The translations under genes were made by a program, and so were the position numbers. The notes under the pieces are model-generated. The model was not told the origin of the DNA and did not search any database. It saw only the letters and a program-made list of their open reading frames with translations. From a virus: a stretch of DNA of 36,601 nucleotides. Shown here piece after piece: positions 7,179 through 31,805 of the stretch. The stretch lies in IMG/VR virus record IMGVR_UViG_3300021961_000275, positions 1 through 36,601 of that record; one strand, 5' to 3'. Within the stretch, counting starts at the first letter, position 1. The number at the start of each line of letters is the position of its first letter.

Positions 7179-7632
7179 TATCATCTCCACAGAACATTGT
7201 AACATTTATACTAGTCCTAGGACTTGTTCCAGTATAGTGTAGAACCCTATGCATTGTATCAGATTCAAATACAATTAATTTCCCTGGTTCAAAATCAACT
7301 GTCTTAACACCATCTTCGACAAGTATCTGTAGTTCACCACCTTGGTTAACACTTCCGTCAATCCATAATATTCCAGCATGAGTGCCTGGCATTACATTAT
7401 GGTTGCCGCCTATACCTTTTTCATTGTGCCAATCAAATCCATTACCAACTCCTGTAAAAGTGGTTCTATTAAACCAGTTATTAGTTATGTTTACTTTGTG
7501 TCCTACAGTTTCCTCTATTAGTTGTGTAAAAGTATCCATATCATTTTCTAATGGGTTGTGAACATTATTACCATCAATAGTTTTTAATTTTTCTATTAAA
7601 GGATTGTTAATATCTACATTATAAACTTGCAT
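7168..7632 (-). CDS. Fe(II)/2-oxoglutarate-dependent oxygenase, HxE type (154 aa)
   Basis: The double-stranded beta-helix signature is clear: FDWHNEKG supplies His69 and Glu71 (HxE in place of the usual HxD), GGELQILVEDG follows, then MHRVLHYTG supplies distal His128, and SPRTSINVTMF gives Arg139, the likely 2-oxoglutarate carboxylate ligand. PGKLIVFES before the distal His is the usual turn. At 154 residues it is a minimal prolyl-4-hydroxylase-like fold. Such enzymes hydroxylate peptides, nucleobases or small molecules; the substrate here is unknown. The ATG at 7632 lies inside the end of the radical SAM gene ending at 7619, and its own 3' end overlaps the next small gene. Tight coupling to a radical SAM protein suggests both act on the same target. 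Confidence 0.82.
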   Translation of the reverse strand: MQVYNVDINNPLIEKLKTIDGNNVHNPLENDMDTFTQLIEETVGHKVNITNNWFNRTTFTGVGNGFDWHNEKGIGGNHNVMPGTHAGILWIDGSVNQGGELQILVEDGVKTVDFEPGKLIVFESDTMHRVLHYTGTSPRTSINVTMFCGDDNGN

Positions 7633-8515: not shown

Positions 8516-9603
8516 TAAATGATATAACTTTCTAAAAATTTTTTATTTTTTTGATTTTCTAAAGTTGTTTGTATGAAATAATGATTTACGGTTGATAGGT
8601 CTATCGAGAAGAAAGATCCAGATGAGTGATCAAAAGTTGATTCGGCTTCAATTATTTTATAGAGCAAATCATCTGTGAAATCAAAAAAACAAGGTAAAAA
8701 ATCAAGTTTATTTGTATCAGACTTCATAAAAATATAATTGGCTTCTTCAACCCAAGAACTACCAGATATGACAGTAAATTCTTTAAAGGCTTGAATATCT
8801 TTTTCTGTAATATTTTCCAGTTGAATACTATCAACACCATTACCTATAGTTCTAAAAGGTTTTTTCCATATTTCTGATGTTGTAAACAGTTTAGTAAATT
8901 TCGATTCATCGTTTAATATTTCATAAAAATTTGAAAAATCATATTCTCTCGTCAAGTTTAATTTTTTTGTAAAGCCTTTTGTCAATAAATGAACTAGAAA
9001 AATTTCTTTTAATTCGAATAGATATTTAATCAAATCTCTCCTAATTAAATTTTTCATAGATTGTTTTAACTCTTCTTTAAAAGATCCATCATATAAAAAG
9101 GTGGTCATCAAATATTCTATACTAACACAAGATTTCAAATTGTTAAGATTTTCTTTGTAAGAATTTTTATAAATTGTTTTAAATATTTTTTCGTCTAGTG
9201 TATAATAATTCTTATTATCTTTTTTTTCTCCATAATTAAATCTTGAATTATTAAAAATAGTATCTCTAAACAAAAGAGATTTCATTAAAAGAAATATATT
9301 TTCTTCTTTAGGATTTTTAAATATCGATTTTAACCAACATGTCAACAGGAATAGATAATTTGTTTCATCAGCATAAATTATAATTTTTTCATTATAATTT
9401 TTTAAATGATTGAAAAAACCACTTAATGATTTATATTTTTCAAGTAATTCTTCTATACTTAAAAAACAATCTATAGTAGTATTTTTATTTTCTAATTCTT
9501 TGAATATGTACTTAACACCAACTGGAGAAATAAAAATTTTTTTTTGTTGCTCATCTATCAATTCATCCGTGTCTAGATATATTTTGTCAAATAAGTGAAT
9601 CAT
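8515..9603 (-). CDS. Unknown-family protein, copy A (362 aa), paralogue of the 16669-17901 gene
   Basis: I do not recognise the family. The protein starts MIHLFDKIYLDTDELID and is Lys/Phe/Ile/Leu-rich and mostly helical. Several blocks match the protein at 16669-17901 in order: MIHLF-K-YL at the start, IYADETNYLFLLTCW versus IHADLDSYMSLIMNY, SIEYLMTTFLYDGSFKEELK versus SIEYYISSYIYDGSKKEQLK, LTREYDFSNFYEIL versus LKEYNLDNAEEIF, and VNHYFIQ versus INVYLIQ near the end. It sits between two radical SAM genes, ten bases after one and sharing TAATG with the next. No cysteine clusters or oxygenase motifs are seen. A scaffold or leader-binding partner for the radical SAM enzymes is plausible but unproven. 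Confidence 0.75.
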   Translation of the reverse strand: MIHLFDKIYLDTDELIDEQQKKIFISPVGVKYIFKELENKNTTIDCFLSIEELLEKYKSLSGFFNHLKNYNEKIIIYADETNYLFLLTCWLKSIFKNPKEENIFLLMKSLLFRDTIFNNSRFNYGEKKDNKNYYTLDEKIFKTIYKNSYKENLNNLKSCVSIEYLMTTFLYDGSFKEELKQSMKNLIRRDLIKYLFELKEIFLVHLLTKGFTKKLNLTREYDFSNFYEILNDESKFTKLFTTSEIWKKPFRTIGNGVDSIQLENITEKDIQAFKEFTVISGSSWVEEANYIFMKSDTNKLDFLPCFFDFTDDLLYKIIEAESTFDHSSGSFFSIDLSTVNHYFIQTTLENQKNKKFLESYII

Positions 9604-9613
9604 ACTTTATGCC

Positions 9614-10687
9614 CTAATAATTATACTCTTTTATATATTCTGTTGGTTCTAAAATACCGGTCAAGCCATTGGCTTCGATGATTTTTGGTGCCAAATTTTT
9701 CATCATGTTACAATGTTGTTCAACTAGATTATAATCTTTCATATCTTTTATTGTTTTTCTACAACCATTACAAATCTCAAACATAGGACAAGAATAACAA
9801 GACATTTTTAATGATTGTAATTCTTCAACATTTCTAAGAGGAAATATTTTTTTACCAGACATCTCTTGTTTGAAATCTATATTAAAAATTTTATCATCAC
9901 CAAAAGAACCACAACTATAATAGTCACCATCAGGTTGCAAAGTTCTTATACCACCATCACAATTCCTAAACTGTGGGCAAGTAGTTTCCAAATTTTTCAA
10001 TCTTTTGGACATTTGTTTCGTGTTGAATTCCCATTCAGTGAGTCCTCTTTCCCATATATCAACATATGTTTTATAAATTTTAGCTAAAAGATAAGGTCTG
10101 CCCTCTTGACCCATAATAATATTTTTAAATTTTTTAGGAGGTCCGCTACTTACCGCATAATTCAATTTACACTCTACGTTCATTTTTTTAGCTAATTCAA
10201 CATTCTTTATAGCTAAATGTTCATTCTCATCAGTGATAACTGAAATAAAATCTGGTCTATATCCACAATGTTCAAGCATCGCATCAGACACTTTCCAAAA
10301 ATCTTCTTCAGTAAATTCAGATAAATCACCTTTTAATCTTCCTCCACCATATTGAAATGATGTACAAATACCCATTCGTGGATGATTGAATAAATCTTTC
10401 CATTTTTCTGGATTTTTATAGAATGGCCAAAGGTTTGAAGTAAATGATATTGATGCTGATGATTCAATGTCATCTAAATGTTTAATTATTTTCCAATAAT
10501 AGTCTGGATTAACCATTAATGGGTCACCACCATTTACAATTATTGTTCTTGTTTCGGGAAATCTTTCCAAAAATTCAAATATGAACCTTAGAGGTAACAA
10601 AGTGTTTTCTTTTTCAGATATTTTGGTGCTTGAACAAAATGTGCATTTAAAATTACAAAGTTCGGTGGGTTTGATGATTAAGTCCAT
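9614..10687 (-). CDS. Radical SAM/SPASM protein (357 aa)
   Basis: The start chosen is ATG at 10687-10685 (MDLIIKPTELCNFKCTFCSS), because the cluster motif then begins at residue 11 as usual and the ATG overlaps the TAA of the upstream oxygenase gene (TAATG). An upstream extension is open but runs through that gene. CNFKCTFC gives Cys11, Cys15 and Cys18; VNGGDP (about 52-56) is the SAM-binding GGD/E motif. The C-terminus is a full SPASM set: Cys237, Cys243, Cys259, then Cys297, Cys300, Cys306, Cys309 and Cys326, predicting two auxiliary Fe-S clusters. SPASM radical SAM enzymes are mainly peptide- and protein-modifying (anSME, sactisynthases, PqqE). Here an oxygenase precedes it and the unknown-family copy A follows ten bases later. 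The substrate is not known. Confidence 0.9.
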   Translation of the reverse strand: MDLIIKPTELCNFKCTFCSSTKISEKENTLLPLRFIFEFLERFPETRTIIVNGGDPLMVNPDYYWKIIKHLDDIESSASISFTSNLWPFYKNPEKWKDLFNHPRMGICTSFQYGGGRLKGDLSEFTEEDFWKVSDAMLEHCGYRPDFISVITDENEHLAIKNVELAKKMNVECKLNYAVSSGPPKKFKNIIMGQEGRPYLLAKIYKTYVDIWERGLTEWEFNTKQMSKRLKNLETTCPQFRNCDGGIRTLQPDGDYYSCGSFGDDKIFNIDFKQEMSGKKIFPLRNVEELQSLKMSCYSCPMFEICNGCRKTIKDMKDYNLVEQHCNMMKNLAPKIIEANGLTGILEPTEYIKEYNY

Positions 10688-11217
10688 TATAATCTTTCGC
10701 AATAAAATCCAAAATTGGCCACAATTCTGGTAAAGTCTTTTTTCATAGATTCTGCTGAATGTTCCCATTGTTTTTGTTGACTCACCATTACTATATCATA
10801 TTTTTTTGGATGAATAAATCCAGTAATTTCTTTAGAAAAAGAATCTCTAAAACTTATACCTCCACCAATATCTTTATTCGTATCATTAAAATATAAAAGA
10901 AAAAGTAAGTTACAACCTTGATCCAAATCATTATGGAAGTTATCAGCACCAATATCTATACCATTCCAAATAGCATTATAACCTATTTTATATTTTGGCC
11001 AAAACTGACTAACATATTTTTCAGATAAAAATATGTGCGTTTTCGACAACTGTTCTGTTATATCACTATTATTATTGCAACTTCTATAATATTTAGCGCC
11101 ATTATTTTGTTTTTCCCATTGCAATTTTGGTAATAAAGGTTCTAAAAATTGAAAACAGGTCTGATCATTAAAATGTGCAAAACCTTTGGTGAAAAAATCA
11201 ACCGTTTGGACTGACAT
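10687..11217 (-). CDS. Fe(II)/2-oxoglutarate-dependent oxygenase, HxD type (176 aa)
   Basis: NFHNDLDQG supplies the metal pair His95 and Asp97 (numbering from the chosen ATG), WEHSAES gives distal His153, and FTRIVANFGFY gives Arg164, the expected 2-oxoglutarate ligand. NAIWNGIDIGADN before the HxD parallels WDGVD in the two oxygenases at 13184-14183, so the three are related. The ATG at 11217 (MSVQTVDFF) is used; an in-frame ATG at 11223 and GTG at 11235 are alternatives and none has an obvious Shine-Dalgarno. The start overlaps the end of the 99-aa gene and the stop forms TAATG with the radical SAM gene. It probably hydroxylates a protein or peptide; the substrate is unknown. Confidence 0.82.
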   Translation of the reverse strand: MSVQTVDFFTKGFAHFNDQTCFQFLEPLLPKLQWEKQNNGAKYYRSCNNNSDITEQLSKTHIFLSEKYVSQFWPKYKIGYNAIWNGIDIGADNFHNDLDQGCNLLFLLYFNDTNKDIGGGISFRDSFSKEITGFIHPKKYDIVMVSQQKQWEHSAESMKKDFTRIVANFGFYCERL

Positions 11218-11497
11218 AACCATATTTGTATTCACAGTCTAAACTATATTCAGTTTCTTCAATATTATCGACACCTAATAACCCACACAATTGACGATTA
11301 CATTCTCTTATCTGAGCTTTAATGGTATTGGTATAAGGTTCCAAGTTTTCTATTTGTTTCATATAAATTTCATATTTTTCTGGTTCATCTTGGTAATCGT
11401 GTAGTTTTGTAATCCACAAATTGTATATTTCCGCACACAAATCACGTTCTCTGTGGAGTTGTTTTTTTTTCTCAAAAATTTCTTCAACCGTATTCAT
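11198..11497 (-). CDS. Unknown small coiled-coil protein (99 aa)
   Basis: Unrecognised. The sequence starts MNTVEEIFEKKKQLHRERDL and is helical and highly charged for about 75 residues, likely an antiparallel helical hairpin, with a C-terminal tail CGLLGVDNIEETEYSLDCEYKYGY. Four cysteines (two within CNRQLCG) are present but no metal motif is convincing. Its ATG lies 14 bases inside the end of the B12-type radical SAM gene and its end overlaps the next oxygenase, so translation is coupled on both sides. Small helical proteins coupled to radical SAM genes are sometimes recognition partners or additional substrates; which applies here cannot be told. Confidence 0.65.
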   Translation of the reverse strand: MNTVEEIFEKKKQLHRERDLCAEIYNLWITKLHDYQDEPEKYEIYMKQIENLEPYTNTIKAQIRECNRQLCGLLGVDNIEETEYSLDCEYKYGYVSPNG

Positions 11498-13187
11498 ACA
11501 TTGGTTCCTTCAACTCGGAAAATAATTCGTTTAAAATTATTTTTTTGTTTCTTTGTAAAAATTCCTCCACAGCATCATTTCTGAGTTTACCTTTTAATAT
11601 CTTTAAATTTTTTGGCTCGGTCTCAGGATTCAAAATATCTGCAGCTTCTTCACATAACTCTCTAAACTCAGGAAATTCACTCATCACATTAAAACAAGTT
11701 TTGCCGAAATAAGGTACCGAATGCTTATCTATAAACATCGGATAAAGATTTTGCAGTAGCCAGTTTCCACAAAGATTCATCATCCACATTTCAACAACAT
11801 CTTCTCTACTAAATGAATAACAACTTGCAATCGTTTTAAAATAATGTCTTTTCTTAACATAAAGACTTTGTAAGTTATCCACACCATCTTCATCGATAAT
11901 ATCCGTATAGACATCAACAAGTTCTATATTATATTTTTTTAAATATTCTGTTTTTGATAATTCTGAATCAGGTAAAAACATATAGTCGTGTCTAAAACTT
12001 GTCCATGCTTTAAAATTCCAAAGTATAGTCATTTCATCATAAAAGTCTTGTAAAGTAGAACCAGGCATAGCCATTATAAGTTCGATAGCTGGTACGGGAA
12101 AGCCTTGTTTGTGACATTTTTTATAAATGTGTTCACTCAATTTTATCTTATCTTCAAAACTCAAATCGATTCTATTGGCAACTTTCATAGCTTCATTACT
12201 GATGCTCTGTATACTAACAGTAGGTACCACACTAATATAAGAAGGTCCTTCATCAGCCTTTGCAACCTCTCTTTTGGTATTAACTGGACTATGCGTTTCC
12301 GGGCCAGAACCAACAACGTCAAACCACGCATCAATTAACTTAATTCTCCTATTCAAGTCTTTACTTTTCATTGTACTGATGTCGGTTAAATTAACTCTGT
12401 TATCCCACCCAAATTTAAATATCTCAACATCTCTATCGAAGAAAACACCGAAGTTTGCGTCAGTTAAATAGACATCCCTAAAACCAGCTTTCTTTAGAGC
12501 AAGAATATCTCTCTTAACAATATCTAAAGGTTTTTTATAAATTTTTGATTCTATACCTCCACCCCATTCACAGTAAACACATCCATACGGGCATCCTCTT
12601 GTGGTTTCAATTATGCAAAAAGGTTCAAGACTATTTTCTCTTGCGTATTCTCTAGTTTCTTTTAGAAAATCATAATGTTCTTCATAAACACTATAATCGG
12701 GCATAAATTGTGAACAAGTTTTACTACTTCTTAATTCCCAAGATATATCTGAGAAATTTGGTTTTCCTCCAGTTTCAATATAAGAATCAATCAATTCTTG
12801 TAAAAAAACTTCTCCAGGTTTTGTTGCTTGAGAAATAAAATCATAATACCATCTTTTTAATAAAAACGTTTGGTCGTTAGTTCCTATGTGTGGTCCACCC
12901 AAAACACATAAACATTCTTTATCTTTAGATTTTATTAATTTTGCTAGGTCATCACATATGTCGTAATTCCAAATGTAACTTGAAAATAAGTATATGTCTG
13001 CTCGACCCACTTCATCATATATTTCTTGAACAGAAGTATATTTGTCGTATTTGTAGGGTGCTGGTATCCACTCTACCTTATCGTTGTTTTTTCCAAATCT
13101 CTTATAATGAGATTGAAACATCAAATATGCGGCATTATTAGCTAAACACCAGTCGGCATGAGGAGGATTTATAAAAGCAACTTTCAT
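11484..13187 (-). CDS. B12-binding-domain-type radical SAM protein (567 aa)
   Basis: The N-terminal 140 residues start MKVAFINPPH and include IYLFSSYIWN, VLGGPHIG and PGEVFLQEL, the Rossmann-like pattern of B12-binding domains ahead of class-B radical SAM cores; the DxHxxG cobalt-ligating motif is absent, as in many members. The core has ETTRGCPYGCVYCEWGG with Cys199, Cys203 and Cys206, followed by DVYLTDANFG. A roughly 170-residue C-terminal region (FRHDYMFLPDSEL onward) is typical of long members. These enzymes perform methylations or other radical chemistry at unactivated carbons, often in natural-product pathways. ATGA overlaps the upstream oxygenase stop, and the 99-aa gene starts inside its end. 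It is the largest enzyme of the island. Substrate is unknown. Confidence 0.88.
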   Translation of the reverse strand: MKVAFINPPHADWCLANNAAYLMFQSHYKRFGKNNDKVEWIPAPYKYDKYTSVQEIYDEVGRADIYLFSSYIWNYDICDDLAKLIKSKDKECLCVLGGPHIGTNDQTFLLKRWYYDFISQATKPGEVFLQELIDSYIETGGKPNFSDISWELRSSKTCSQFMPDYSVYEEHYDFLKETREYARENSLEPFCIIETTRGCPYGCVYCEWGGGIESKIYKKPLDIVKRDILALKKAGFRDVYLTDANFGVFFDRDVEIFKFGWDNRVNLTDISTMKSKDLNRRIKLIDAWFDVVGSGPETHSPVNTKREVAKADEGPSYISVVPTVSIQSISNEAMKVANRIDLSFEDKIKLSEHIYKKCHKQGFPVPAIELIMAMPGSTLQDFYDEMTILWNFKAWTSFRHDYMFLPDSELSKTEYLKKYNIELVDVYTDIIDEDGVDNLQSLYVKKRHYFKTIASCYSFSREDVVEMWMMNLCGNWLLQNLYPMFIDKHSVPYFGKTCFNVMSEFPEFRELCEEAADILNPETEPKNLKILKGKLRNDAVEEFLQRNKKIILNELFSELKEPMYEYG

Positions 13188-13705
13188 ATGGTATAATCAA
13201 AACTTACAACTCGCCTTTGAATTTTTGTGCTTTCAGCTCGGTGCCAAAATCCTCTAGCATTAGATACACAGAATAAAGAACCAGAGAGTGGTTGAAAGGA
13301 TTTTTCTTCAAAAATACCGTTTTCTTTCCATTTGAATTGGATGGCACCTCCAGTTTCCTTGGCCGTATTGTCATAATAAAATAAAAAGAATATGTCATAT
13401 TGCTCAAACATATCCGTATGCCATCCTTGATTGTCCCTATCAACTCCATCCCATACAGTATATTTCACAAATTTGGAATCATCACCCCAATGTGGGTCAA
13501 CATATTTCGTTTTTATATATTGAGAAGCCACCTTTAAACTATAATTTAACTTTTCTGGTAAATCAATTTCATCGTTATCCCTACTTCTTTCTTCGGTATT
13601 CAGAAGTTTATAATTGTCTAGTGATAAAATGTCCAATAAATCTGGTTCCGACAATTCATAAAAACCATATTGTTCAATTTGTTGTTTGATATTTAAATTC
13701 GACAT
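13184..13705 (-). CDS. Fe(II)/2-oxoglutarate-dependent oxygenase, HxD type (173 aa)
   Basis: VWDGVDRDNQGWHTDMF supplies His96 and Asp98, GGAIQFKWKENG is the central strand pair, FWHRAEST gives distal His155, and QRRVVSFDY provides Arg164 or Arg165 for 2-oxoglutarate. The fold is complete. It is closely similar in layout to the immediately upstream oxygenase (13674-14183), with the same WDGVD, W-H-x-D, H-R-A-S/E-S and R-R pattern at the same residue numbers, so the two are probably a tandem duplication followed by divergence. The ATG at 13705 overlaps the upstream gene by 32 bases; the TGA overlaps the ATG of the B12-type radical SAM gene. Peptide or protein hydroxylation is the likely chemistry; the target is inferred. 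Confidence 0.85.
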   Translation of the reverse strand: MSNLNIKQQIEQYGFYELSEPDLLDILSLDNYKLLNTEERSRDNDEIDLPEKLNYSLKVASQYIKTKYVDPHWGDDSKFVKYTVWDGVDRDNQGWHTDMFEQYDIFFLFYYDNTAKETGGAIQFKWKENGIFEEKSFQPLSGSLFCVSNARGFWHRAESTKIQRRVVSFDYTI

Positions 13706-14183
13706 TTATAATCCTACGTCTTGTTCTACTTCTAGATGCTCTATGTTTATATTTGTCCGATTGGTTTAACCAAACCAATGTTCCGGATGTAGGATGAATA
13801 GTGAATTCTTCTTTTTCATTTTTAAATTCAAGATATCCATCATGCAGACAATCATCCAAATAATATAAAAATGAACAATCTTGTCCGTATCCATTATCAA
13901 CGTGCCATTCTAATGATTTTTTGTCAACACCATCCCATAAATTGGCAGAGACAATGTTTGCTGGCCTGAATGGAGACACATATTCAGTATAAACATAATT
14001 GGCAAAAAAGTTTAAAAAATCTTTTTGGGAGTTTGTATAAGTAATCTTAAAAGGTGAATCACTTACATTAATAATCGGTTCATATTGAATTTCATCAAAT
14101 TTTTTTAAAATCAATTCATCTTTCATTACAGAAACACCATTAATAATATAATTTGTTAAAAACTCATTCTTTTGTTGTATCAT
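13674..14183 (-). CDS. Fe(II)/2-oxoglutarate-dependent oxygenase, HxD type (169 aa)
   Basis: LWDGVDKKSLEWHVDNGYG gives His94 and Asp96 counted from the ATG at 14183, YKHRASRS gives distal His147, and TRRRIINVEF supplies the Arg ligand. The neighbouring 13184-13705 protein has the same motif spacing, so they are paralogues. Start choice is uncertain: ATG at 14183 (MIQQKNEF) keeps an N-terminal segment that aligns with the paralogue, a TTG at 14189 is two codons earlier, and an ATG at 14126 would trim 19 residues. It overlaps the end of the 247-aa unknown gene, placing it third in the unit that begins with the CHxS protein. The nearest plausible substrate is that CHxS protein; this is inference. 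Confidence 0.83.
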   Translation of the reverse strand: MIQQKNEFLTNYIINGVSVMKDELILKKFDEIQYEPIINVSDSPFKITYTNSQKDFLNFFANYVYTEYVSPFRPANIVSANLWDGVDKKSLEWHVDNGYGQDCSFLYYLDDCLHDGYLEFKNEKEEFTIHPTSGTLVWLNQSDKYKHRASRSRTRRRIINVEFKYQTTN

Positions 14184-14907
14184 AACCAAAATATTCTTCT
14201 ATTTGTTGTTTAGACAAAAGGTTTTCAGCCAAATTGAAAGTTATAACGAACAACATATTCTTTTCATTAGCCCAAAAGTCAAATAAATTTTTACCTTTAT
14301 AAATGTTTTTCTTGTAAAAATTTTCGTAAAATTTAAAATTTTCTTGATTTGAATTCAACAATAGAGAGATGAATTGTCCATCTTTTAAGATCGATATGAA
14401 ATTTATTCCAGAATAATCTTCATCGTCCACTACAGGAAATTTTTCAATATAATCTTTAAAAACTTTCCCATTTTTAACTGTATAGACGTTATACAAACTC
14501 AAACTTTGAATTAATGAAACCCATTTTTCTAAAATTTGTTTATTACTTTCTATAAATTTATCAATATTTTTATTTCTATCGAAATAATAATTTGGTTGGT
14601 CAACTTTAGTTTTTTTAGTTTTTGTATTATTGATGAAATATGATAAAATTCCAAACACATCATTTTCAATTGAAGGTAAACTAACTAAAAGTGTTGAATT
14701 CAAATACTCTTTTAAAAATTCTTCATACTCTTTTTGATCGGTGAAAAATACATCACTAGGTATTTCCAAATTACTTAAATATGTTAAAAGTTTTTTTCCT
14801 TTGAGCTCACTTTTATCATAGTTAATATTAAAAAAAACGTCTTTATCTGTAAAATGTTTTTTTAAATCATCCATCGACAAAGGAGCAGTTACTTCAATAA
14901 CATTCAT
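14164..14907 (-). CDS. Unknown protein directly downstream of the CHxS protein (247 aa)
   Basis: Not recognised with confidence. It begins MNVIEVTAPLSMDDLKKHFT and is Lys/Phe/Tyr/Asn-rich, mainly soluble, with short predicted helices and no Cys cluster or HxD site. The N-terminal segment (DVFFNINYDKSELKGKKLLT) and its position beside a CHxS/His-Xaa-Ser-like protein invite comparison with HxsD, the small accessory protein of the HXS system, but it is much longer and I cannot confirm homology by eye. A strong AGGAG (14921-14917), placed in the last codons of the CHxS gene nine bases ahead of the ATG, couples the two. The best guess is a dedicated partner, for example a chaperone or leader-recognition protein, for the CHxS product. 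Confidence 0.7.
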   Translation of the reverse strand: MNVIEVTAPLSMDDLKKHFTDKDVFFNINYDKSELKGKKLLTYLSNLEIPSDVFFTDQKEYEEFLKEYLNSTLLVSLPSIENDVFGILSYFINNTKTKKTKVDQPNYYFDRNKNIDKFIESNKQILEKWVSLIQSLSLYNVYTVKNGKVFKDYIEKFPVVDDEDYSGINFISILKDGQFISLLLNSNQENFKFYENFYKKNIYKGKNLFDFWANEKNMLFVITFNLAENLLSKQQIEEYFGYDTTKE

Positions 14908-14912
14908 AAAAT

Positions 14913-15542
14913 TTATCTCCTACCTCTACTTTTATGACAACTCTGATGACAAGAACTGTGACAAACACTATAACCAGTAATTTGTAATGTGTTGATAGAA
15001 GTGTTCAAAACGGCTACTAGTTGTTCTTTATACTTATTTAATTTTGATGCTGAAATTGTTGCACCTTTAACTGGTTTATCTGGCACAAGAGTAGCTGGTA
15101 AACCAGTTGCTGCTGGAGTGAGTCTAGAAGTAGTATTTAGATGTGTAACCCCAGATTTGGTTTCTGATGATTCCTTTGCGGTAAACCTAGGGACACCGGT
15201 GTGGTAATAAGGGGGATAATTATCACCCGAATAATTATTTGTTGCTGTTATAGTTCTTTTAACACTTACTGTTTGTATATTTGTATAATAATAAGCCTGT
15301 TCCGTCAAAGCATCTACGATAGTGGAAGCTTTGATCTGTTCAGTGGCAAGACCATCTAAATCTGTATTTAATTGTCCCACTGAAGCTGTTCCTTCAGTAT
15401 AAAGGGCGTTGTCAATTTCCGGAAAATGTTTATTAGATTGATGGTATATAATTGTTGGTATAGTAGCTCGAAGATATGCTACAAAAATATCCATAATGTC
15501 GTCACTCTCAATTTCATCATCTTGCGTAAAATTAGTTGCCAT
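14913..15542 (-). CDS. Candidate modified substrate: protein with C-terminal CHxS repeats (209 aa)
   Basis: The C-terminus reads CHSSCHQSCHKSRGRR: three consecutive Cys-His-x-Ser tetrads followed by a basic tail. These are the protein's only cysteines, all within the last 16 residues. The first 190 residues look like a conventional structural protein: an acidic start (DDEIESDDIMD), a helical stretch (IFVAYLRATIPTIIYHQSNK), then Thr/Ser/Tyr-rich beta-type sequence (TITATNNYSGDNYPPYYHTG) and a final helix (ASKLNKYKEQLVAVLNTSIN). The tetrads resemble the His-Xaa-Ser repeats of HxsA, known to co-occur with radical SAM maturases HxsB/HxsC. The gene sits mid-island, after a SPASM radical SAM gene and before an unknown gene and two oxygenases. 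It has its own TATAAATA late motif and an AAGGGAG site (15559-15553). A modified minor virion protein, or alternatively an unmodified metal-binding tail tip, is inferred. Confidence 0.8.
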   Translation of the reverse strand: MATNFTQDDEIESDDIMDIFVAYLRATIPTIIYHQSNKHFPEIDNALYTEGTASVGQLNTDLDGLATEQIKASTIVDALTEQAYYYTNIQTVSVKRTITATNNYSGDNYPPYYHTGVPRFTAKESSETKSGVTHLNTTSRLTPAATGLPATLVPDKPVKGATISASKLNKYKEQLVAVLNTSINTLQITGYSVCHSSCHQSCHKSRGRR

Positions 15543-15546
15543 TTTT

Positions 15547-16599
15547 CTAAGACTCCCTTATAATTATAATCTTTCTTTTACTATTTATACCACTCAAATG
15601 AGACATTAAACTCTTAGGTGCAGCACAAACATCATTTTGCCACTCCAACTGATGGCAATCACCACCACAATAAGAGAATACCTCACAATTATAACATCTA
15701 CTGTCTCCCATTTTTTCACAAGTAATATTATTTATTCTTGTGGGATTATTAATTAATGCTTTCACATCATCATCAATATTACCAAAATATTCTTCTGGAG
15801 CAGAATTTGGACAACCAGAAATTGTTCCGTCAGCATTTATCGTAAAAAGTTTTTCTTCACAGTCCCTACAAAAAGTTCCAGCTTTTGTAAATCCAGATTC
15901 AAACTTCATATAAACATTTTCTAAAAACTCATTTTTAAACCAAGTTCTCGCATTATATTTTTCACTCTGTTTGTGCATTTCCAAAAACCATTTATCCTGT
16001 TCTTCATTGGTAGGAAAAATTTCTGGAAACAGATTTGCATTACCATTTTTAGTTAATCTTTCTAAACTAATTTCATCAAAACCCATTTCTTTTACAAACA
16101 ATAATAATTTTATGGGTTCAATTTCCAACGTATCTTTTGTAACACTCACAAAAAGTTTTAATTTGATACCCTCAGATATCAATCTTCTTACATTATTTTC
16201 CCAAAGACTAATTTGTTTCTGATTCTCAAATCTTATTTTGGGATCCCAGCTTGTTGCTATTGAACCAGAAAGTGGCCCTTTCATAAAATCTATTATCTCA
16301 TCGGTAAGTTTAAAAACTAAATTTGTTGTTACGCCCCATGAAACACTATTCCACAAACTATTACAGGAGTCATAAATTTTTTGCATCTCCTCAACAGGTG
16401 CTAAAAAAGGTTCTCCTCCATGAAACTCAAAATGTATATGATTCAAATCTGGTTTAACATCTCGGAATCTATGAATCCAATCAATTATTTTATCAGTATT
16501 CCAAAATATTTTTTTACCATTTTTTCCGTTGGTAAAACAATGCTTACAATTCAAATTGCAAGTCTCAGTGGTTTTCAAGTAAATATTAACATCTTGCAT
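15547..16599 (-). CDS. Radical SAM/SPASM protein, anSME-like layout (350 aa)
   Basis: The start is taken at ATG 16599-16597, placing CNLNCKHC at Cys14, Cys18 and Cys21; the open extension to 16680 is a hydrophobic artefact reading through the divergent promoter region. FHGGEPFLAP (Gly61-Gly62-Glu63-Pro64) is the SAM site. The C-terminus has a textbook SPASM: Cys244, Cys247, Cys263, Cys294, then Cys302, Cys305, Cys311, Cys315 and Cys325 (CX2CX5CX3CX9C), so two auxiliary clusters are expected. This is the layout of sulfatase-maturase-like and RiPP peptide-modifying enzymes. Its stop is four bases before the ATG of the CHxS protein, making it the prime candidate for that protein's maturase. The end of the gene also contains the CHxS promoter. 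The exact reaction cannot be predicted. Confidence 0.9.
   Translation of the reverse strand: MQDVNIYLKTTETCNLNCKHCFTNGKNGKKIFWNTDKIIDWIHRFRDVKPDLNHIHFEFHGGEPFLAPVEEMQKIYDSCNSLWNSVSWGVTTNLVFKLTDEIIDFMKGPLSGSIATSWDPKIRFENQKQISLWENNVRRLISEGIKLKLFVSVTKDTLEIEPIKLLLFVKEMGFDEISLERLTKNGNANLFPEIFPTNEEQDKWFLEMHKQSEKYNARTWFKNEFLENVYMKFESGFTKAGTFCRDCEEKLFTINADGTISGCPNSAPEEYFGNIDDDVKALINNPTRINNITCEKMGDSRCYNCEVFSYCGGDCHQLEWQNDVCAAPKSLMSHLSGINSKRKIIIIRES
15582..15589 (-). promoter_or_regulatory. Perfect T4 late promoter motif TATAAATA for the CHxS gene
   Basis: The minus strand at 15589-15582 reads TATAAATA, the full T4 late -10 consensus, inside the last codons of the SPASM radical SAM gene. The CHxS start codon is 39 bases downstream and an AAGGGAG ribosome site lies between. 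It would give a separate, probably stronger, late transcript for the candidate substrate. Confidence 0.7.
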
Positions 16600-16628
16600 G
16601 ATTTGTATGATTTGTATGAACGACAACG

Positions 16629-16636: not shown

Positions 16637-16668
16637 GACAATAACAATATTATATAGGAGATTACAAG

Positions 16669-17901
16669 ATGATTATTCATCTGTTTAAAAAAGTATACCT
16701 AAATTTGGACTGGGATATTAGTTTGGAAGAAGACAGAATTGTCGTTTCAACAAATCAAGGTTATGGATTAAGTAACGCATTGCTTGATTATGATTATTCT
16801 TATCCAAAAAAACTTGTTGCTTATGGACCAAGTATTGAATATCTTATCGGTGAAAATACTGAAAAAACTGAAGATGAGAGTGTTTACTTTGAAGAAAAGA
16901 TAACACAAATAGGTTTACCAAAGGAAAAATTTGCTTCGGATTATATCGATTTTTTTACAAAAGTATATGAACATTCCGAACAGACGGGAAAACCATTAAC
17001 AATTCATGCTGACTTAGATTCCTATATGTCGTTGATCATGAATTACTACAAAATAATTTTTCCAAATTTAGATTTCAAGTCCTTATCAAGAATATTGAAA
17101 AGTTGTTATTATAGAACAACTTTCATAAAACAATTAAACACTTATACCAAGAAAAGCACCTTTACAGAACAAAAATATTTGGGATATTTTTACGCAAATA
17201 TGTTGGAAAGAATGTCGGAGTTTGAAAAAGAATACGACTTAATTTCCTTCGATTCAAAACAGAAAGAATTAGAAGAATTTTACGATAAAATAAAAGAAAA
17301 TTTGAGTATAGAATACTATATTTCTTCTTACATCTATGATGGTTCAAAAAAAGAACAATTGAAAAAAATTGTGATGTTGATGATTTATAGGCATAGTGAA
17401 GAGATATTAGAAGAACATGTCATGCACTTTCTTACCGCATTTTTGAGAAAACCATTCCAAAGAAAAATGGGATTGAAAGAATATAATTTAGATAACGCCG
17501 AAGAAATTTTTACCGACCCATTAGTTGAAAAATTCTTAAAGACGAGTGTTTGGAGATTTAGTGAAGAATTTGAAAGAATAAATTTTTCCAATTACACAAA
17601 AGAAGATTTGGACGAAATTAAAGCCACTTTAGAAAAAATTAATGACTGTTTTTATGGTCTAACCGAAGAATCTGACCTTGTTGATTTACTGAGATTTAAT
17701 TACTCATATTACCTATTGGACAATAAAATTTCTGATGATGAACTTCAGTCTATTATTAATAAAGAATCTGAAACGGATAACGAAATGTCTATGTGGACCG
17801 CAGAAGATCAAAATACCATTAATGTATATTTGATACAAGAATTTTTTGACATCAAAAATCAAAGTAAAGTGGATTCGTTAAAGCCTTTCCGTTTAAGGTA
17901 A
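16669..17901 (+). CDS. Unknown-family protein, copy B (410 aa), paralogue of the 8515-9603 gene
   Basis: Unrecognised family. It starts MIIHLFKKVYLNLDWDISLE after a good AGGAG site. Blocks aligning with copy A include the MIIHLFKKVYL start, LTIHADLDSYMSLIMNYYK, SIEYYISSYIYDGSKKEQLK, FLRKPFQRKMGLKEYNL, NYTKEDLDEIKA and NTINVYLIQEFF. It is longer by a roughly 48-residue excess, mostly in the first third. It is Glu/Lys/Tyr-rich, probably helical and soluble, with a single cysteine near residue 145 and another in DCFYG, so no Fe-S cluster is likely. It is the first gene of a two-gene plus-strand unit with an HxH oxygenase 13 bases downstream. Two paralogues beside different enzymes suggest a dedicated partner role, one per enzyme set; this is inference. 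Confidence 0.75.
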   Translation: MIIHLFKKVYLNLDWDISLEEDRIVVSTNQGYGLSNALLDYDYSYPKKLVAYGPSIEYLIGENTEKTEDESVYFEEKITQIGLPKEKFASDYIDFFTKVYEHSEQTGKPLTIHADLDSYMSLIMNYYKIIFPNLDFKSLSRILKSCYYRTTFIKQLNTYTKKSTFTEQKYLGYFYANMLERMSEFEKEYDLISFDSKQKELEEFYDKIKENLSIEYYISSYIYDGSKKEQLKKIVMLMIYRHSEEILEEHVMHFLTAFLRKPFQRKMGLKEYNLDNAEEIFTDPLVEKFLKTSVWRFSEEFERINFSNYTKEDLDEIKATLEKINDCFYGLTEESDLVDLLRFNYSYYLLDNKISDDELQSIINKESETDNEMSMWTAEDQNTINVYLIQEFFDIKNQSKVDSLKPFRLR

Positions 17902-17914
17902 TAAAGGAATAAAA

Positions 17915-18529
17915 ATGATTAAAAATATTTTTCCAGTTAATATTGTCGTTAAAGATTACGATTTGTCCGAAGAATTTAATATAGAATTAAAAAAAAGTGT
18001 TGAAACAATTTTTCAAAAACGCTTATTGGATTCTGGACTAACTAGAGATGAATTAGGTGATACTGAATTTCCTCTTTTTACGGAAGAAAACAAAAAAGAA
18101 TTTCCTGTTTTGAACAAAATGTTGGAAATTATGACTGAAGGATTCGTAGAATTGGCAGAATCTTATAATAATAATGAATTAGATAAAAATGATATTCTTT
18201 CATCTGTGCAGAGCAATATTGGCAAACTTCCTTTTATGCAAAAAGGTACTTACAAAAAAACTCATAACCATACAGGCGCTTCAGCTTTTGCCATTTTTTA
18301 TTTAAATGATATTGATAATGATAAACACGGCGGCGAGCTGATTTTAAAAGACCCAGCATTTCATTCGAATCTGGGATTTCACCCTCCAGAAGAACACGGC
18401 ATAGAAACTAAAAAGAATAGGTTGATTGTTGCACCAGGTTACATCTGGCATGAAGTGTCACCTTATTTGGGTGATGAAGAGAGATTGTCCATTGTTATGA
18501 ACTTAGATTTAAAAGTCAACTTACAGTAG
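17915..18529 (+). CDS. Fe(II)/2-oxoglutarate-dependent oxygenase-like protein, HxH type (204 aa)
   Basis: KKTHNHTGASAFAIFYLND supplies His117 and His119 in an HxH arrangement with the YL-D strand of the 2OG-FeII_Oxy_5 type (PF13759-like); GGELILKDP follows, then APGYIWHEVSPYLG gives distal His179 and EERLSIVMNLDLK gives Arg190 for 2-oxoglutarate. This subgroup is common in marine T4-like phages but its substrates are largely unknown. The ATG has AAAGGA seven bases upstream and follows copy B by 13 bases, so the two form one plus-strand unit under the TATAAATA at 16629. Its 3' end overlaps the tail of the minus-strand cupin gene by 14 bases. An HxH metal site may use a different third ligand; activity is inferred. 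Confidence 0.78.
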   Translation: MIKNIFPVNIVVKDYDLSEEFNIELKKSVETIFQKRLLDSGLTRDELGDTEFPLFTEENKKEFPVLNKMLEIMTEGFVELAESYNNNELDKNDILSSVQSNIGKLPFMQKGTYKKTHNHTGASAFAIFYLNDIDNDKHGGELILKDPAFHSNLGFHPPEEHGIETKKNRLIVAPGYIWHEVSPYLGDEERLSIVMNLDLKVNLQ

Positions 18530-18986
18530 AGTAAAATTTTTCCAAACCAAAACTAAACATTAACGATTCAGTATTATTGATGGCTCTGTGCGCCTGTCCT
18601 TTTGGTATGAAAAATTCTTGGTTTTGTTCTATGGTATAAATTTTTCCAAGTGTTTCTATTTGTTTTTGGCCTTCTATGACATATAGTAAAACATCTTCAT
18701 TATCTACATGTTCGGGAAAACTATGTGAATTTTCATATGAACGGAAAACGTGGCAAGTCACAAAACCTTTATGTTTAAATCTTTTCTTTATGTCCAAACA
18801 TATCGAATTTATTTCTTCACCATAATATTCCATATGTTCCAACTTTATAGTTTTTCCATAATAGGAATGTAACTGACCAACGTTAGACAAGTAAATTTGC
18901 CTACCTTGGTTATCTATGATACTAATTAACTGTTTATCATAAACCAAATCCGTATTAACGAATGTGTCAAACTCATCATAATTCAT
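18516..18986 (-). CDS. JmjC-like cupin (156 aa)
   Basis: The C-terminal half is a cupin: SFPEHVDNEDVLLYVIEGQK gives His93 and Asp95 with the H-x-D-x-x-D-V-x-L-x-x-x-x-G spacing of JmjC/Cupin_4 ribosomal-oxygenase-type hydroxylases, and IPKGQAHRAINNTE gives the distal His133. The first 80 residues (MNYDEFDTFVNTDLVYDKQL onward) are not recognisable and are short compared with full JmjC hydroxylases. It may be a minimal protein hydroxylase or a non-enzymatic metal-binding cupin. It follows an HxH oxygenase by eight bases on the same strand and meets the plus-strand oxygenase gene tail to tail with a 14-base overlap. No Shine-Dalgarno is evident before the ATG. Confidence 0.7.
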   Translation of the reverse strand: MNYDEFDTFVNTDLVYDKQLISIIDNQGRQIYLSNVGQLHSYYGKTIKLEHMEYYGEEINSICLDIKKRFKHKGFVTCHVFRSYENSHSFPEHVDNEDVLLYVIEGQKQIETLGKIYTIEQNQEFFIPKGQAHRAINNTESLMFSFGLEKFYSTVS

Positions 18987-18994
18987 ATTTAATA

Positions 18995-19540
18995 TTATTT
19001 TTCTACAATGAAAACATCAAATGGCATTATTATCCTAGGAAAATCAGAATATGATTGCATGGTTTCATGCCACAAATAACTAGGAAATATAACTATATCA
19101 CCCACTTTAACCTCCAATACTTCGACAGAGAATTCTTTTTGAGATATTACATCACTATTATAACCTCTGTTTGCATTGTTTCGTGGGTCATACATGAGTA
19201 AATCACCATCAGTGGCTGAAACATAAAATACACCACTCAAAATACTACAAGCGTGATTATGGTATATGATATTTTTATGATCACTAGCATGAATTTTTAT
19301 ACTGAATTCATCTTTATATTCCCAAACCTCACTTAAATATTCTTTAACCTTTTCGTTGATATAGTCTACAACTTCTTCAAGTTCCTTTTCGTTACTCAAA
19401 TTTATGTTGGTGTAATTTGTTGGGAAATTATGCTCTTTGAATGAAGACACCAAAAAATTAAAACAATTTTGAATCGTATTTGTATTAGAAATATTATCTA
19501 TCAGTATCCTAGTTGGCCAAAGACTTTTTATCATCGACAT
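18995..19540 (-). CDS. 2OG-Fe(II) oxygenase of the PF13759 (2OG-FeII_Oxy_5) type (181 aa)
   Basis: The protein begins MSMIKSLWPTRILIDNISN, the short N-terminal pattern (S-L-W-P-T) usual in this family. IIYHNHACSILSGVFYV supplies His94 and His96 and the family's SGVFYV strand; LLMYDPRNNANRG follows; VKVGDIVIFPSYLWHETMQSY gives distal His158, and FPRIIMPFDVF gives Arg169. The family is frequent in T4-like cyanophages and pelagiphages; its biological substrate is not established. The ATG at 19540 has AGGAAG about ten bases upstream and lies inside the end of the radical SAM gene ending at 19509, so the two are co-translated. A peptide or protein target shared with that enzyme is inferred. Confidence 0.88.
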   Translation of the reverse strand: MSMIKSLWPTRILIDNISNTNTIQNCFNFLVSSFKEHNFPTNYTNINLSNEKELEEVVDYINEKVKEYLSEVWEYKDEFSIKIHASDHKNIIYHNHACSILSGVFYVSATDGDLLMYDPRNNANRGYNSDVISQKEFSVEVLEVKVGDIVIFPSYLWHETMQSYSDFPRIIMPFDVFIVEK

Positions 19541-20552
19541 ATTTAAAAACTTCCTTATATAAACAAGTGTTCATATCCTCTTCTATAAATTTAAAATCAT
19601 GTTTTATGAAGCAAGTAAAAGAACACTTTTGATAATATTCACAAGAAAAACAATTGTATTTTTCGATAAAATTCTGGATAATTTTTGGTGAACCCACTTC
19701 GTCAGATTTTCTATCAGCCAAAAATACAGAACCAGAACACCCTTCCGGTATAAAATTATTTTTCAATACAGTAAAATTGTTGCCTCTTGTGCAAGTCATT
19801 TTGTTTTGTTTCTCTTTACCAACAAAAGATGCAACATTCAAAACGTTAGGATACTTGTCAACTAACAATTTATAAAACTCAAAGGTGTTTTTTTCAGATG
19901 GCATCTGAAACTTATTAGTTTCAGTTTTTCCAGCAGGCAAAAAAGAATCAAAATCAATAACACAATTTTGATAGATATGATCAAAAAAATCATCACCTCT
20001 CATCAACGATTGTATATTTTGTTTAGTCAAAACAACATTGACTGTTTTAATTTTATCTTTAAATATTTGAAAGTTGTTTTTAAATACGTTCAGAGTTTCG
20101 CTGTTAAACCTACCAGCCATGTCATAAGAACTGGAAATATTTAAATTGTTTTTCTCCAAAAAGTTAAATATTTTTTCCGTCTGTGTGAAAATCAAATTAG
20201 TAACAAAATTAAAAATTACTTTCTTATCCTTATCGACCTTTTCTATAACTTCATCAATAAATTTTTGATAAATGTCTAGATAACCCTTTTCTATCCAATA
20301 ATCTTGAAATAATTCTCCACCCATGGTATGAATGTAAAACTCTTTAGACCTTCGATTATTATTAATAAAGTCAACAACAAGAGGAACCTTTTTCATTATT
20401 TCTTCTTCAGTTGATCCGGTCATGTCATCGTGTTCTTGTGGGCAAAAAGCACAAGACAAATTACAATGGTCAAATAAAATCAAAACAATTTCACTGTGGT
20501 CTACAACCTTAGAATTAATTATATTATAAAAAGAAATTGGTTGTTCAATCAT
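19509..20552 (-). CDS. Radical SAM/SPASM protein (347 aa), first gene of the enzyme island
   Basis: FDHCNLSCAFCPQE gives Cys30, Cys34 and Cys37; HTMGGELFQDYW (Gly78-Gly79-Glu80) is the SAM-binding motif. The SPASM set is Cys254, Cys272, then Cys301, Cys304, Cys310, Cys314 and Cys330 (CX2CX5CX3C...C), consistent with auxiliary Fe-S clusters. The N-terminal 28 residues ahead of the cluster motif (MIEQPISFYNIINSKVVDHS) are longer than in the other radical SAM genes here and fold into the core. No clear Shine-Dalgarno or late motif lies in the 29-base gap after fibre 1, so read-through from fibre 1 is likely. An HxH oxygenase overlaps its 3' end. The target is probably a protein or peptide; reaction type is unknown. 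Confidence 0.9.
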   Translation of the reverse strand: MIEQPISFYNIINSKVVDHSEIVLILFDHCNLSCAFCPQEHDDMTGSTEEEIMKKVPLVVDFINNNRRSKEFYIHTMGGELFQDYWIEKGYLDIYQKFIDEVIEKVDKDKKVIFNFVTNLIFTQTEKIFNFLEKNNLNISSSYDMAGRFNSETLNVFKNNFQIFKDKIKTVNVVLTKQNIQSLMRGDDFFDHIYQNCVIDFDSFLPAGKTETNKFQMPSEKNTFEFYKLLVDKYPNVLNVASFVGKEKQNKMTCTRGNNFTVLKNNFIPEGCSGSVFLADRKSDEVGSPKIIQNFIEKYNCFSCEYYQKCSFTCFIKHDFKFIEEDMNTCLYKEVFKYVDDKKSLAN

Positions 20553-20581: not shown

Positions 20582-23500
20582 TTAAAGTATAACAACTTCT
20601 ACTAATCCCTCTTCTTCAGTTTTCTTTGACTTCAATGCAATCATTCTAAGTGGTGTTATTATTTTTATATCACTAACAATACCAACTCCTGGAGTTTCAG
20701 AGACAATAATCATATCACCTTTTTTAACTTTTCCTATAACTCTGACAGGAACTCGTCCTTTAAGTCCAACCATCGTTCCATTTTTCAACTCACTATTCAT
20801 TATATATGCGGGTTTTGTTGACACAATACCAACAACTGACATTATTTTGTCTTTTGTTGCCGCAGTAATTTCTTTTTTACCACCAATCATCATAATTGTT
20901 CCCTCGACATATTTTGCATCAGCTAGATAATTTTCCGCCAAGTCAGCATATTTTGCTGATGAAGCAACACCATTGAAATTCGTTGCCCAAACATCTCTCG
21001 ACGTTGCTATATCACCAGAACATTTTATTGCTGCGTTATCATCATCATCATATTTACTAGATGTAGCTTTGCTCCATCCAATAACAAGTCGGCCGCTAAG
21101 GCTGGTATGACCATTGTTTTTTATTCCAAATACGGTCTTGGCGGCGCCGGAGTCGCCAGTAACTACTGTTCCACCACTAACAACATTAGTAGCATTAGTG
21201 GCAGTAGTGGCACTACCAGCACTACCGGCAGTAGTAGCACTAGTAGCAATAGCAGCAGTACCTGTGATGTTTATGTCATATGTTCCAGGTGCAGCTGATG
21301 TTCCAAGCCTAGCTCGTGGTAATAAACCAGATGTTATTCTACTAGCGTCAACATTTAATGTACTGGTAGAAGACAGGTCAACTCCCTGCGGGTCACCCCA
21401 CTCATACCCCTTATTACCATTCCAATATAATATTTTACCTGATGTGGTCGATTCTGGCGCAGCAAAGAAAGCCGTTGTGTTTGCATTAGACTGTATCACC
21501 AAATTATTTGCAGAACCGTGTAAAATATTTTTCGTATGGTGTGAAAATTCAAAAGCGTTTGTGATTGTTAAGTAATTATTTCCGGAGAAAGTTTTATCGT
21601 TTGTAAAAATTCTCCAAAGTGGAACATCAGCATTCCTACCTGTTTGCGTTTCGAGCCATGAGAAGTAAGTATTTGATTTATTTCCTCTATCAAAATTAAT
21701 CGTAATGTCGTCAGTGCTACCTTGATTTTGGTTTTGATTTGTGTTGAAGTTTATTTGTTTTCCTGTAAAGAAAACAGTTCCTGTATTATCAAATGAAACA
21801 TTAGGAGTAGAAAGTTTTGCACCGTCGCCAGCGAGTGTAAGTGAACCATAGAGAGTTTGTGTACTTGTACCAACCAATGGTGAACCAGTTGTTCCTTTTA
21901 CTATAGCGGTGTTTGATAACGTATATGCTGCATTAGCATAAACACCAGTAGTGTTTTGACTTATGTAAGCTGAGTTTGCATGTAAGTAGGCTGAATTAGC
22001 ATAAACACCAGCAGAGAGTGCATCCACTTGTGCTTTATCTGCGGCACCCTGAGCAGTAGCGGCATCAGCAACCGCAACGTTAGCCATAAAATATGCTGAA
22101 TTAGCATAAAGACTTGCTCCAGTATTCACGTTTAGTAATGCAGTATTGGCGGTAACATATGCAGCATTGGCATAACCCCCAGCTATTTGTCCACCAGCAA
22201 CTAAAGCAGTATTGGCGGTAGCATATGCAGCATTGGCATAACCACCAGCTATTTGTCCACCAGCAACTAAAGCAGTATTGGCGGTAGCATATGCAGCATT
22301 GGCATAAACTTGAGCTGAATTCGCAGTCATATAAGCCGTATTGGCATAAACACCAGAAGTGTTTTGTGTCCTAAATGCTGAATTGGCATAAGATATAACA
22401 CTCGTTATATTTGTATTTTGTATGGCACTAACTCCATTAGAATAAACACCTTCTCCAACAGCTCTATCAAATGCAACCTTCAAAACTCTTGCAGAAGCAA
22501 CTTCTGTTGTACTTGTTCCGGTTGTTGTGTCATTAATGTCTGCTCGGTCCAAAATCTTATACATGGAATTCCAAGTATCACCTGTAGAAACCTCCCACCA
22601 ATCATCAACTTCATTCCAAGATATTTTTGCGTCAGTGCCATCAGGTCTTTCATTTACAATATTGGCATTTTTGTTTAATGTTGCACCATCATTTAGTGTT
22701 AATGTATCTACTTGTAAAGCAACTTCACCAGTTTGTGTAAATTTACCTGTGACGGTTAAAGGAGCTTCGATAACTGTGGTCAATAATCTAGTTGTGCCTT
22801 GCGTCACAACTAGTGCATCTGATGATGATGTGTAACCTTCAATTCTAACGTTTCCTGTTTGAACTGTTAGATTATTTGTTACATTCATTTGTTCAACATC
22901 CAACCTTGTTATGCTGACATTTGAAATATTGGCGGTGTTCGCATTAATTAAATTAACATTTGAAGTTCTAATCAAAGCTAATGTAGCGTTAGCTGTATTT
23001 GCGTTAACCGTGCTAATATTTGCGGTTGTTGAAAGAACTAAAGTGACATTTCCTGTATTTGCATTAATTGTAGAAATATTTGAAGTTCTAATCAAAGCTA
23101 ATGTAGCGTTAGCTGTATTTGCATTAATCTCGTCAGCTTGTAATAATTCGTTGTAAATAGTACCAATTGTTGAGTTGGTTATATTTGATGTGTCCGAATC
23201 AAATGCTGTTATTGTTCCAGTATTGATAGTCGCATCATTTGATATTAACGTGACGATATTACCAGTTTGATTTGCTGTCAGGTTTCTTATGATGGAAGTG
23301 TTTGCAAATGTTGTATTTGACCTCAAGTAATACACATTAGCCTGTGTATTTTGTAATGTGATAATTTCAGCATAAGGCAGCGTATCTAAAACCTCAATTT
23401 TAGCATAAGTTGCATAGAAAGCATCTACGTTAGCACCTTGAGTGTCAACTTCGGACGATATAACGGTATCTATTCTTGCATTACCAGTCGGTATAATTAA

Positions 23501-31797: not shown

Positions 31798-31805
31798 TTT
31801 ATTAT

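Follow-up and report, generated by a model that had tools for sequence, protein, structure and literature searches.

The window analysed here, an IMG/VR virus contig of 36.6 kb, contains fibre-like genes and T4-like baseplate genes (gp6-like, phrog_219 E 6e-133, with baseplate wedge matches at 30478-34652), and between the fibre genes lies an island coding for five radical SAM enzymes, several 2OG-Fe(II) oxygenases, a JmjC-like cupin and proteins with no known domain (Table 1). An earlier note on this DNA had given the same number of radical SAM genes and had named one of them, at 15547-16599 (rSAM1), as the likely dedicated maturase of the CHxS protein encoded next to it. The reading frame of rSAM1 runs on the minus strand, and the plus strand of the same interval is rich in stop codons. 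The longest mechanical open reading frame reaches an ATG at 16680; because orthologues begin near MQDVNIYLKTTETC, a start at 16599 is the better choice.

The rSAM1 protein scored 34.1 bits with the SPASM model TIGR04085 (cut-off 27) and matched phrog_1802 with an E value of 1.6e-67. It contains the radical SAM motif CNLNCKHC (CX3CX2C), an HGGEP motif and the SPASM segment CYNCEVFSYCGGDCHQLEWQNDVC, which reads C-x2-C-x5-C-x3-C-x9-C, as the earlier note had claimed for the cysteines and for GGEP. The three cysteines of the AdoMet-cluster motif (C14, C18 and C21) and seven of the SPASM region (C247, C263, C302, C305, C311, C315 and C325) are invariant in 23 divergent orthologues, and C244 is nearly so. 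rSAM1 is a full SPASM radical SAM enzyme with its catalytic and auxiliary cluster cysteines intact. Its SPASM pattern is indeed the fullest of the island, but it is not the sole one, as rSAM2 also exceeds the TIGR04085 cut-off with 28.5 bits. The claimed spacing of four bases was correct as well: bases 15543-15546 separate the stop codon of rSAM1 from the start of the CHxS gene at 15542. On its other side, rSAM1 is separated by 16600-16668 from a divergent plus-strand gene, and this short stretch is a possible site for the promoter that drives the CHxS operon.

Table 1. Features of the radical SAM island with their evidence; fractions refer to rSAM1 loci longer than 20 kb.
Feature	Position	Strand	Description	Evidence
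DUF_6774 (phrog_20737)	6774..7205	(-)	core partner	phrog_20737 E 6e-44; 33/45 loci
rSAM3	7619..8515	(-)	radical SAM of core set	phrog_1802 E 3e-32; 41/45 loci
IHLF-family protein	8515..9603	(-)		phrog_36207 E 6e-8; 28/45 loci; relatives near CHxS genes
rSAM2	9614..10768	(-)	second SPASM radical SAM of core set	TIGR04085 28.5 bits > 27; 41/45 loci
B12-binding radical SAM	11484..13187	(-)	KedN5-like, accessory	NF033712 75 bits < cut-off 700; 22/45 loci
2OG-Fe(II) oxygenase	13184..13705	(-)	accessory	PF13640 E 1e-4, below curated cut-off
2OG-Fe(II) oxygenase	13674..14189	(-)	accessory	PF13640 29.7 bits > 27
DUF_14164 (phrog_20767)	14164..14907	(-)	247 aa, constant downstream partner of CHxS	45/45 loci
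CHxS protein	14913..15542	(-)	209 aa, body and 16-residue C-terminal tail; proposed substrate	family and fold searches
CHxS tail	14916..14963	(-)	CHSSCHQSCHKSRGRR, three His-x-Ser triads; proposed modified region	invariant columns, tail composition, codons
rSAM1	15547..16599	(-)	SPASM radical SAM enzyme, 350 aa	TIGR04085, phrog_1802, orthologue cysteines, CHxS adjacency
second IHLF-family protein	16669..17901	(+)	upstream of and divergent from rSAM1	homologous to some IHLF genes of related loci
2OG-Fe(II) oxygenase	17915..18529	(+)	accessory	PF13759 35.6 bits > 27
cupin	18516..18986	(-)	JmjC-like (PF08007), possible hydroxylase	JmjC_2 29.3 bits > 22; weak similarity in 43/45 loci
2OG-Fe(II) oxygenase	18995..19540	(-)	accessory	PF13759 58 bits > 27
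rSAM4	19509..20552	(-)	divergent radical SAM of core set	phrog_1802 E 4e-33; 44/45 loci
fibre-like gene	20582..23965	(-)		relatives immediately before the CHxS pair or rSAM1-CHxS in other phages

The CHxS gene product ends in SVCHSSCHQSCHKSRGRR. Profile searches assigned its body to no Pfam or NCBIfam family, tblastn of the whole protein against the phage collection returned no relative, and the predicted structure (AlphaFold pLDDT 75.6) found no fold match in the PDB. Among the BFVD matches of the model is a 296-aa protein of Atu_ph07, which is that phage's own CHxS protein. Two further BFVD entries from Myoviridae sp. ctijX18, A0A8S5USJ7 and A0A8S5USJ8 (504 and 660 aa), partly share the fold of the CHxS body (Foldseek E 9e-4 and 3e-3) and could reveal how it is incorporated in larger tail proteins. 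Among its neighbours, the DUF_14164 model (pLDDT 83) has no relative in the PDB (best VIA Z 3.9 over a 57-residue alpha/beta piece), the protein from 16669..17901 belongs to no Pfam, PHROG or NCBIfam family, and the fibre-like product of 20582..23965 gave no Pfam match. rSAM3 was present in all six contigs re-searched whole, and DUF_6774 stands beside rSAM2 or rSAM3 in other lineages.

Linkage of the CHxS tail with rSAM1

The tail pattern matched once in the window and in none of 100 dinucleotide-preserving shuffles, which argues that it did not arise by chance. A search with the back-translated pattern (CH..CH..CH..R.RR), with no enzyme in the query, retrieved at least 120 IMG/VR stretches and at least 30 GTDB genome stretches; 172 of the 187 motif occurrences among the matches listed terminate exactly at the stop codon after R-x-R-R. 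Matches in Frankia, Streptomyces, Synechococcus and similar contigs were rejected as chance low-complexity frames. The bodies that bear the tail, from at least 172 proteins, are unrelated and vary in length and sequence, and most complete CHxS proteins have 120-320 aa, unlike the short peptide with a cleaved leader expected of a RiPP precursor. After alignment of 48 relatives with 21-33% identity to the CHxS protein of the window, all invariant columns fell within the last 16 residues. The 64 distinct tails of an rSAM1-based search share invariant Cys and His residues, R13, R15, R16 and the first Ser, while the other Ser positions hold Ser or Asn and in one case Ala. Because the serines are encoded by both TCN and AGY codons, selection acts on the tail as protein. 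It is the sole conserved Cys/His-rich C-terminus among the 1403 proteins of these loci, so that no second tail of this kind was found there as a possible substrate of the other radical SAM enzymes. Phage-type CHxS genes also occur on five GTDB MAG contigs assigned to Rickettsiales, Bacteroidetes and Rhodobacteraceae (L133, L136, L137, L143 and L154), some of whose copies match IMG/VR copies identically in tail and start; these are probably phage contigs binned with bacteria.

Among the matches listed in the tail-only search, rSAM1 was the immediate same-strand upstream neighbour of 72 CHxS genes, with gaps of -29 to +38 bp, and a fibre-like gene lay immediately upstream of 30, nearly all of them the first of a tandem pair; none of the other radical SAM genes of the window's set was scored in this position, and DUF_14164 was the downstream neighbour of 70. 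Searching with rSAM1 only, we found a CHxS gene directly after it in 69 of 74 cases and 1.0-2.2 kb downstream in the other five, and CHxS was present in all 45 rSAM1 loci longer than 20 kb. Searched from either side, rSAM1 and the tail are linked far more often than chance would allow. The gene order is kept in jumbo phages of Burkholderia, Agrobacterium, Sinorhizobium and Pseudomonas, at rSAM1 identities of 42-49%, and the isolates SURPRISE13, Atu_ph07, Phosso and SNUABM_DT01 have the order small gene, rSAM1, CHxS, the small gene being annotated as a cupin in two of them.

A different arrangement occurs on many contigs of a lineage with two CHxS genes of 124-140 aa in tandem after a fibre-like gene. 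Here, the gene directly after the pair encodes another radical SAM enzyme; rSAM1 itself is found 8-12 kb off, in a block ordered cupin-rSAM1-rSAM2, usually with rSAM3 and DUF_6774 close by. The rSAM1 sequences of this lineage are nested among those of the other phages in a tree whose bootstrap is not fully settled, and the assumption of a separate paralogue was rejected on this placement. Both arrangements stand side by side on the 151-kb contig IMGVR_UViG_3300025138_000014, which contains two rSAM1 and two rSAM4 genes and a single copy each of rSAM2 and rSAM3. Since rSAM1 is duplicated while rSAM2 and rSAM3 are not, rSAM1 seems to go with the substrate, and the other two may be shared; although they come from one contig, these copy numbers are the best evidence that rSAM1 tracks the substrate. 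The two different CHxS cassettes of this phage lie beside two fibre-like genes (L327/L328, 26-66 kb), and cassette B contains five further radical SAM genes of the type seen after tandem pairs.

The rSAM1-CHxS pair also recurs in Bdellovibrionota chromosomes, including cassettes on long contigs where no phage structural gene is visible; near one of these (L284), a gene resembling that of ribosomal protein bS20 was recognized by eye. Both rSAM1 and rSAM2 were found in nine of ten re-searched CHxS-bearing non-phage genomes from Bdellovibrionota and related bacteria, the tenth being the 1.0-Mb genome G025. Within a sample of 191 Bdellovibrionota genomes, the exact tail occurred in five, all belonging to the nine with rSAM1 (Fisher p 6e-8), and three of the other four rSAM1 genomes bear variant tails in the position before DUF_14164. 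In G173, rSAM1 is present and no HxS tail was found on its contig, and two Bdellovibrionota genomes carry two rSAM1 copies with one HxS gene detected.

Taken from the two-way linkage, the Bdellovibrionota genomes and the copy numbers of the two-system phage, the part of the earlier proposal that makes rSAM1 the putative maturase of the tail is well supported by genomics, whereas "dedicated" holds only partly. The tail is accompanied almost as faithfully by rSAM2, rSAM3, rSAM4, the cupin and DUF_14164; in the tandem-pair lineage it is another radical SAM gene that adjoins CHxS, and two Bdellovibrionota genomes have a second rSAM1 copy. Because rSAM2, rSAM3 and rSAM4 nearly always accompany the tail, the phylogenetic profiles are compatible with a multi-enzyme path. 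The tail might even be modified mainly by rSAM2, by rSAM3 or by the radical SAM enzyme of the tandem pairs, or by several in sequence, the adjacency of rSAM1 and CHxS then being an inherited operon order. rSAM2 is about equally universal and more conserved than rSAM1 (58-78% versus mostly 57-67% identity to the window), a piece of it adjoins CHxS in L142, and in the tandem-pair loci another radical SAM gene comes directly after CHxS. We still regard this explanation as unlikely, given that rSAM2 and rSAM3 were never scored upstream of CHxS among the matches listed and remain single-copy in the phage that duplicates rSAM1. That rSAM1 acts on the C-terminal tail of CHxS is, judged from these gene patterns, likely. 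The complete explanation, in which rSAM1 is a peptide-modifying SPASM enzyme and the protein encoded four bases further on offers its C-terminal tail as the substrate, we consider probable on slightly less firm ground.

Variant tails and the proposed chemistry

The variant tails of Bdellovibrionota were read as YYWCHSSHSSHSSHSSRGRR in G170, NYCHSNHCSHSNHGSRGRR in G106, where the last unit has Asn instead of its Cys, and FICHSNCYTPPPKSRSRR in G086, which keeps a single H-x-N unit. They include C(HSS)4RGRR and C(HSN)(HCS)(HSN)(HGS)RGRR: cysteines 2 and 3 can be lost, while the H-x-[S/N] units are kept or raised to four and R-x-R-R is retained. The unit that these two variants leave constant is therefore His-x-Ser/Asn, and a chemistry confined to the cysteines has lost weight.

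His-x-Ser/Asn corresponds to the i,i+2 unit of three-residue cyclophanes, and for this reason we favour, still tentatively and by analogy, a cross-link from His to the C-beta of Ser or Asn. Known i,i+2 links made by SPASM enzymes join His C2 to Ala C-beta (HaaB, ScaB) or Phe to Ser C-beta (MscB) (PMC11002830), and the exchange of Ser and Asn in the tails fits a reaction at C-beta. rSAM1 would abstract the C-beta hydrogen of the Ser or Asn in each unit, and this carbon would then be bonded to the imidazole of the His in that unit, so that a tail could acquire as many as three three-residue cyclophanes, each with a loss of 2 Da. The substrate would be a fibre- or tail-associated protein of 120-320 aa whose tail stays attached, rather than a short cleaved peptide. 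Further changes, to the Cys and His residues or to the protein body, might come from the remaining radical SAM enzymes, the cupin and the 2OG oxygenases; the cupin and the oxygenases suggest additional hydroxylation. The outcome would be a rigid, chemically unusual tip that contacts or passes through the Gram-negative envelope. Against this explanation stand the three cysteines, which are invariant in phages and which cyclophane formation by itself leaves unaccounted for, the single H-x-N unit of the G086 tail, and the co-occurrence of rSAM2, rSAM3 and rSAM4, almost as strict as that of rSAM1. Thioether, formylglycine or hydroxylation on the tail are possible.

The C-x3 repeats and the presence of the ranthipeptide maturase PapB among the best NCBIfam matches of rSAM1 would suit thioether links of the sacti- or ranthipeptide type, running from the three cysteines to residues near them. 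Yet one variant tail keeps only the first Cys of the repeat register together with four His-x-Ser units, a second shifts its other Cys inside a unit, and the tails offer no Asp or Glu acceptor, which makes such links improbable. An equally slight chance is given to the view that the tail serves, without modification, as a metal-binding or disulfide tip, the radical SAM and 2OG enzymes acting on other structural proteins or the tail fibre. The regular Cys/His spacing and the frequent vicinity of fibre-like genes agree with it, but not the gene pairing, presence and copy number that the tail has in common with rSAM1, nor the variants that have lost cysteines 2 and 3 and still keep both H-x-[SN] and the enzymes.

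The target motif of anaerobic sulfatase-maturating enzymes (anSME) is C/S-x-A/P-x-R. It resembles the C-H-G-S-R of the tail with its invariant Arg, and anSME is among the closest solved structures to rSAM1 (4k36-4k39, with a SPASM fold), so that rSAM1 might convert the Cys (or Ser) of the last C-H-x-S-R to formylglycine and leave an aldehyde tip. This conversion is highly improbable, since the anSME model TIGR03942 scores only 43.3 bits against a cut-off of 349, the third position of the tail motif does not require Pro or Ala, G106 has Asn in place of the Cys of the last unit, and no sulfatase is involved here. anSME itself acts on Cys or Ser within a short motif ending in Arg, as rSAM1 would in this reading. 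The chemistry of rSAM1 is not readable from its family, because rSAM1 lies far below every curated peptide-maturase equivalog cut-off, including those of the cyclophane-forming maturase models (YhhB 36.7/445, AmcB 26.3/425 and FxsB 28.5/370 bits).

Known systems and probable placement in the virion

The closest parallels are the triceptide systems (XncB, OscB, MscB, HaaB, YhhB and ScaB), in which a SPASM radical SAM gene likewise stands beside a substrate with repeated aromatic-x-residue units, and in which His and Ser are both known as partners at i and i+2 (PMC11002830). The protein adjacent to rSAM1 has conserved i,i+2 His-x-residue units, namely three H-x-[S/N] and four in variants, but it is a probable virion protein of 120-320 aa instead of a short precursor, and it is accompanied by several radical SAM enzymes and oxygenases. 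The His-Xaa-Ser (HXS) system HxsA/HxsB/HxsC described by Haft and Basu also combines a His-x-Ser repeat protein with paired radical SAM enzymes, and one of the tails reported here is literally (HSS)4; in CHxS, however, the His-x-Ser units form a short C-terminal tail that is interspersed with Cys and closed by RxRR. The HxsA model TIGR03979 found nothing above its cut-off in eight CHxS genomes or records, one of them with the (HSS)4 tail, and rSAM1 and rSAM2 remained below the equivalog cut-offs of HxsB (33.3/370 bits) and HxsC (28.3/267.9 bits), respectively. Membership in the HXS system was therefore dropped, and a weak TIGR03979 match in SNUABM_DT01 was discounted, lying in a transglycosylase-like reading frame. 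We rate the CHxS/rSAM1 system as belonging to radical SAM-SPASM peptide modification, in a new form.

The enzymes of the window match the phage radical SAM family phrog_1802, whose cassettes are known from pelagimyophages and jumbo phages. Radical SAM cassettes have been reported in phage host recognition clusters (PMC7029224), for FLC6 (PMC8066314) and S13 (PMC11898562), and in 332-Vera with eight such genes amid structural genes (PMC12390700); the available portions of these papers name neither a substrate nor a function and make no mention of an adjacent CHxS gene. A T4-like marine phage with 12 radical SAM genes and an Fe-S carrier gene is likewise reported, in the part of the article available, without a substrate (PMC5332604). 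Our literature search, which covered sources outside subscription papers, found no description of a CHxS precursor or of a phage RiPP-like tail. The radical SAM genes repeatedly reported without substrate in phage structural regions thus gain a candidate, a short near-invariant tail on otherwise unrelated proteins that occurs in considerably more than 100 phage contigs from sea and soil as well as in predatory bacteria.

The CHxS gene of Atu_ph07 is gp170, the record numbering agreeing with the baseplate gene gp181 and the portal gp198 of the virion study. In the available text of that study, most virion proteins fall into three clusters, one of which, "CDS 170-215", begins with gp170 (PMC6102473); this boundary would place gp170 in the virion. 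Fibre-like genes adjoin CHxS or rSAM1 in several lineages, and the CHxS protein is probably, with a fair measure of doubt, a virion component located at the tip of the fibre or tail. The conserved set of radical enzymes that numerous tailed phages, and a handful of predatory bacteria, carry beside a probable fibre or tail protein with the near-invariant tail suggests that these viruses remodel the end of a virion component chemically, in much the way that bacteria make cross-linked peptide natural products. If the tail is cross-linked, virions would carry a kind of chemistry familiar until now from peptide natural products, probably where the host is contacted, and if the links are cyclophanes, RiPP-like covalent chemistry would be incorporated in a virus particle. 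The most far-reaching version credits tailed phages and predatory Bdellovibrionota with a common pathway of several radical SAM enzymes, by which a fibre protein that contacts the envelope receives His-to-Ser/Asn cyclophanes at its C-terminal tip; this version is speculative and rather doubtful.

In Bdellovibrionota, five cassettes (L283, L284, L285, L268 and L281) are accompanied by genes whose products start like pilins (GFSLAEV, MSLLEV), by a conserved protein with the C-terminus GRHWVKVK and by a small one that terminates in a GW motif, and L268 also contains a fibre-like fragment, GNVGIGTTSPT; these cassettes possibly belong to a predator appendage with the same tip. The B12-binding radical SAM enzyme of the window is about 54-56% identical to those in L284 and L285, which points to an exchange between phages and Bdellovibrionota.
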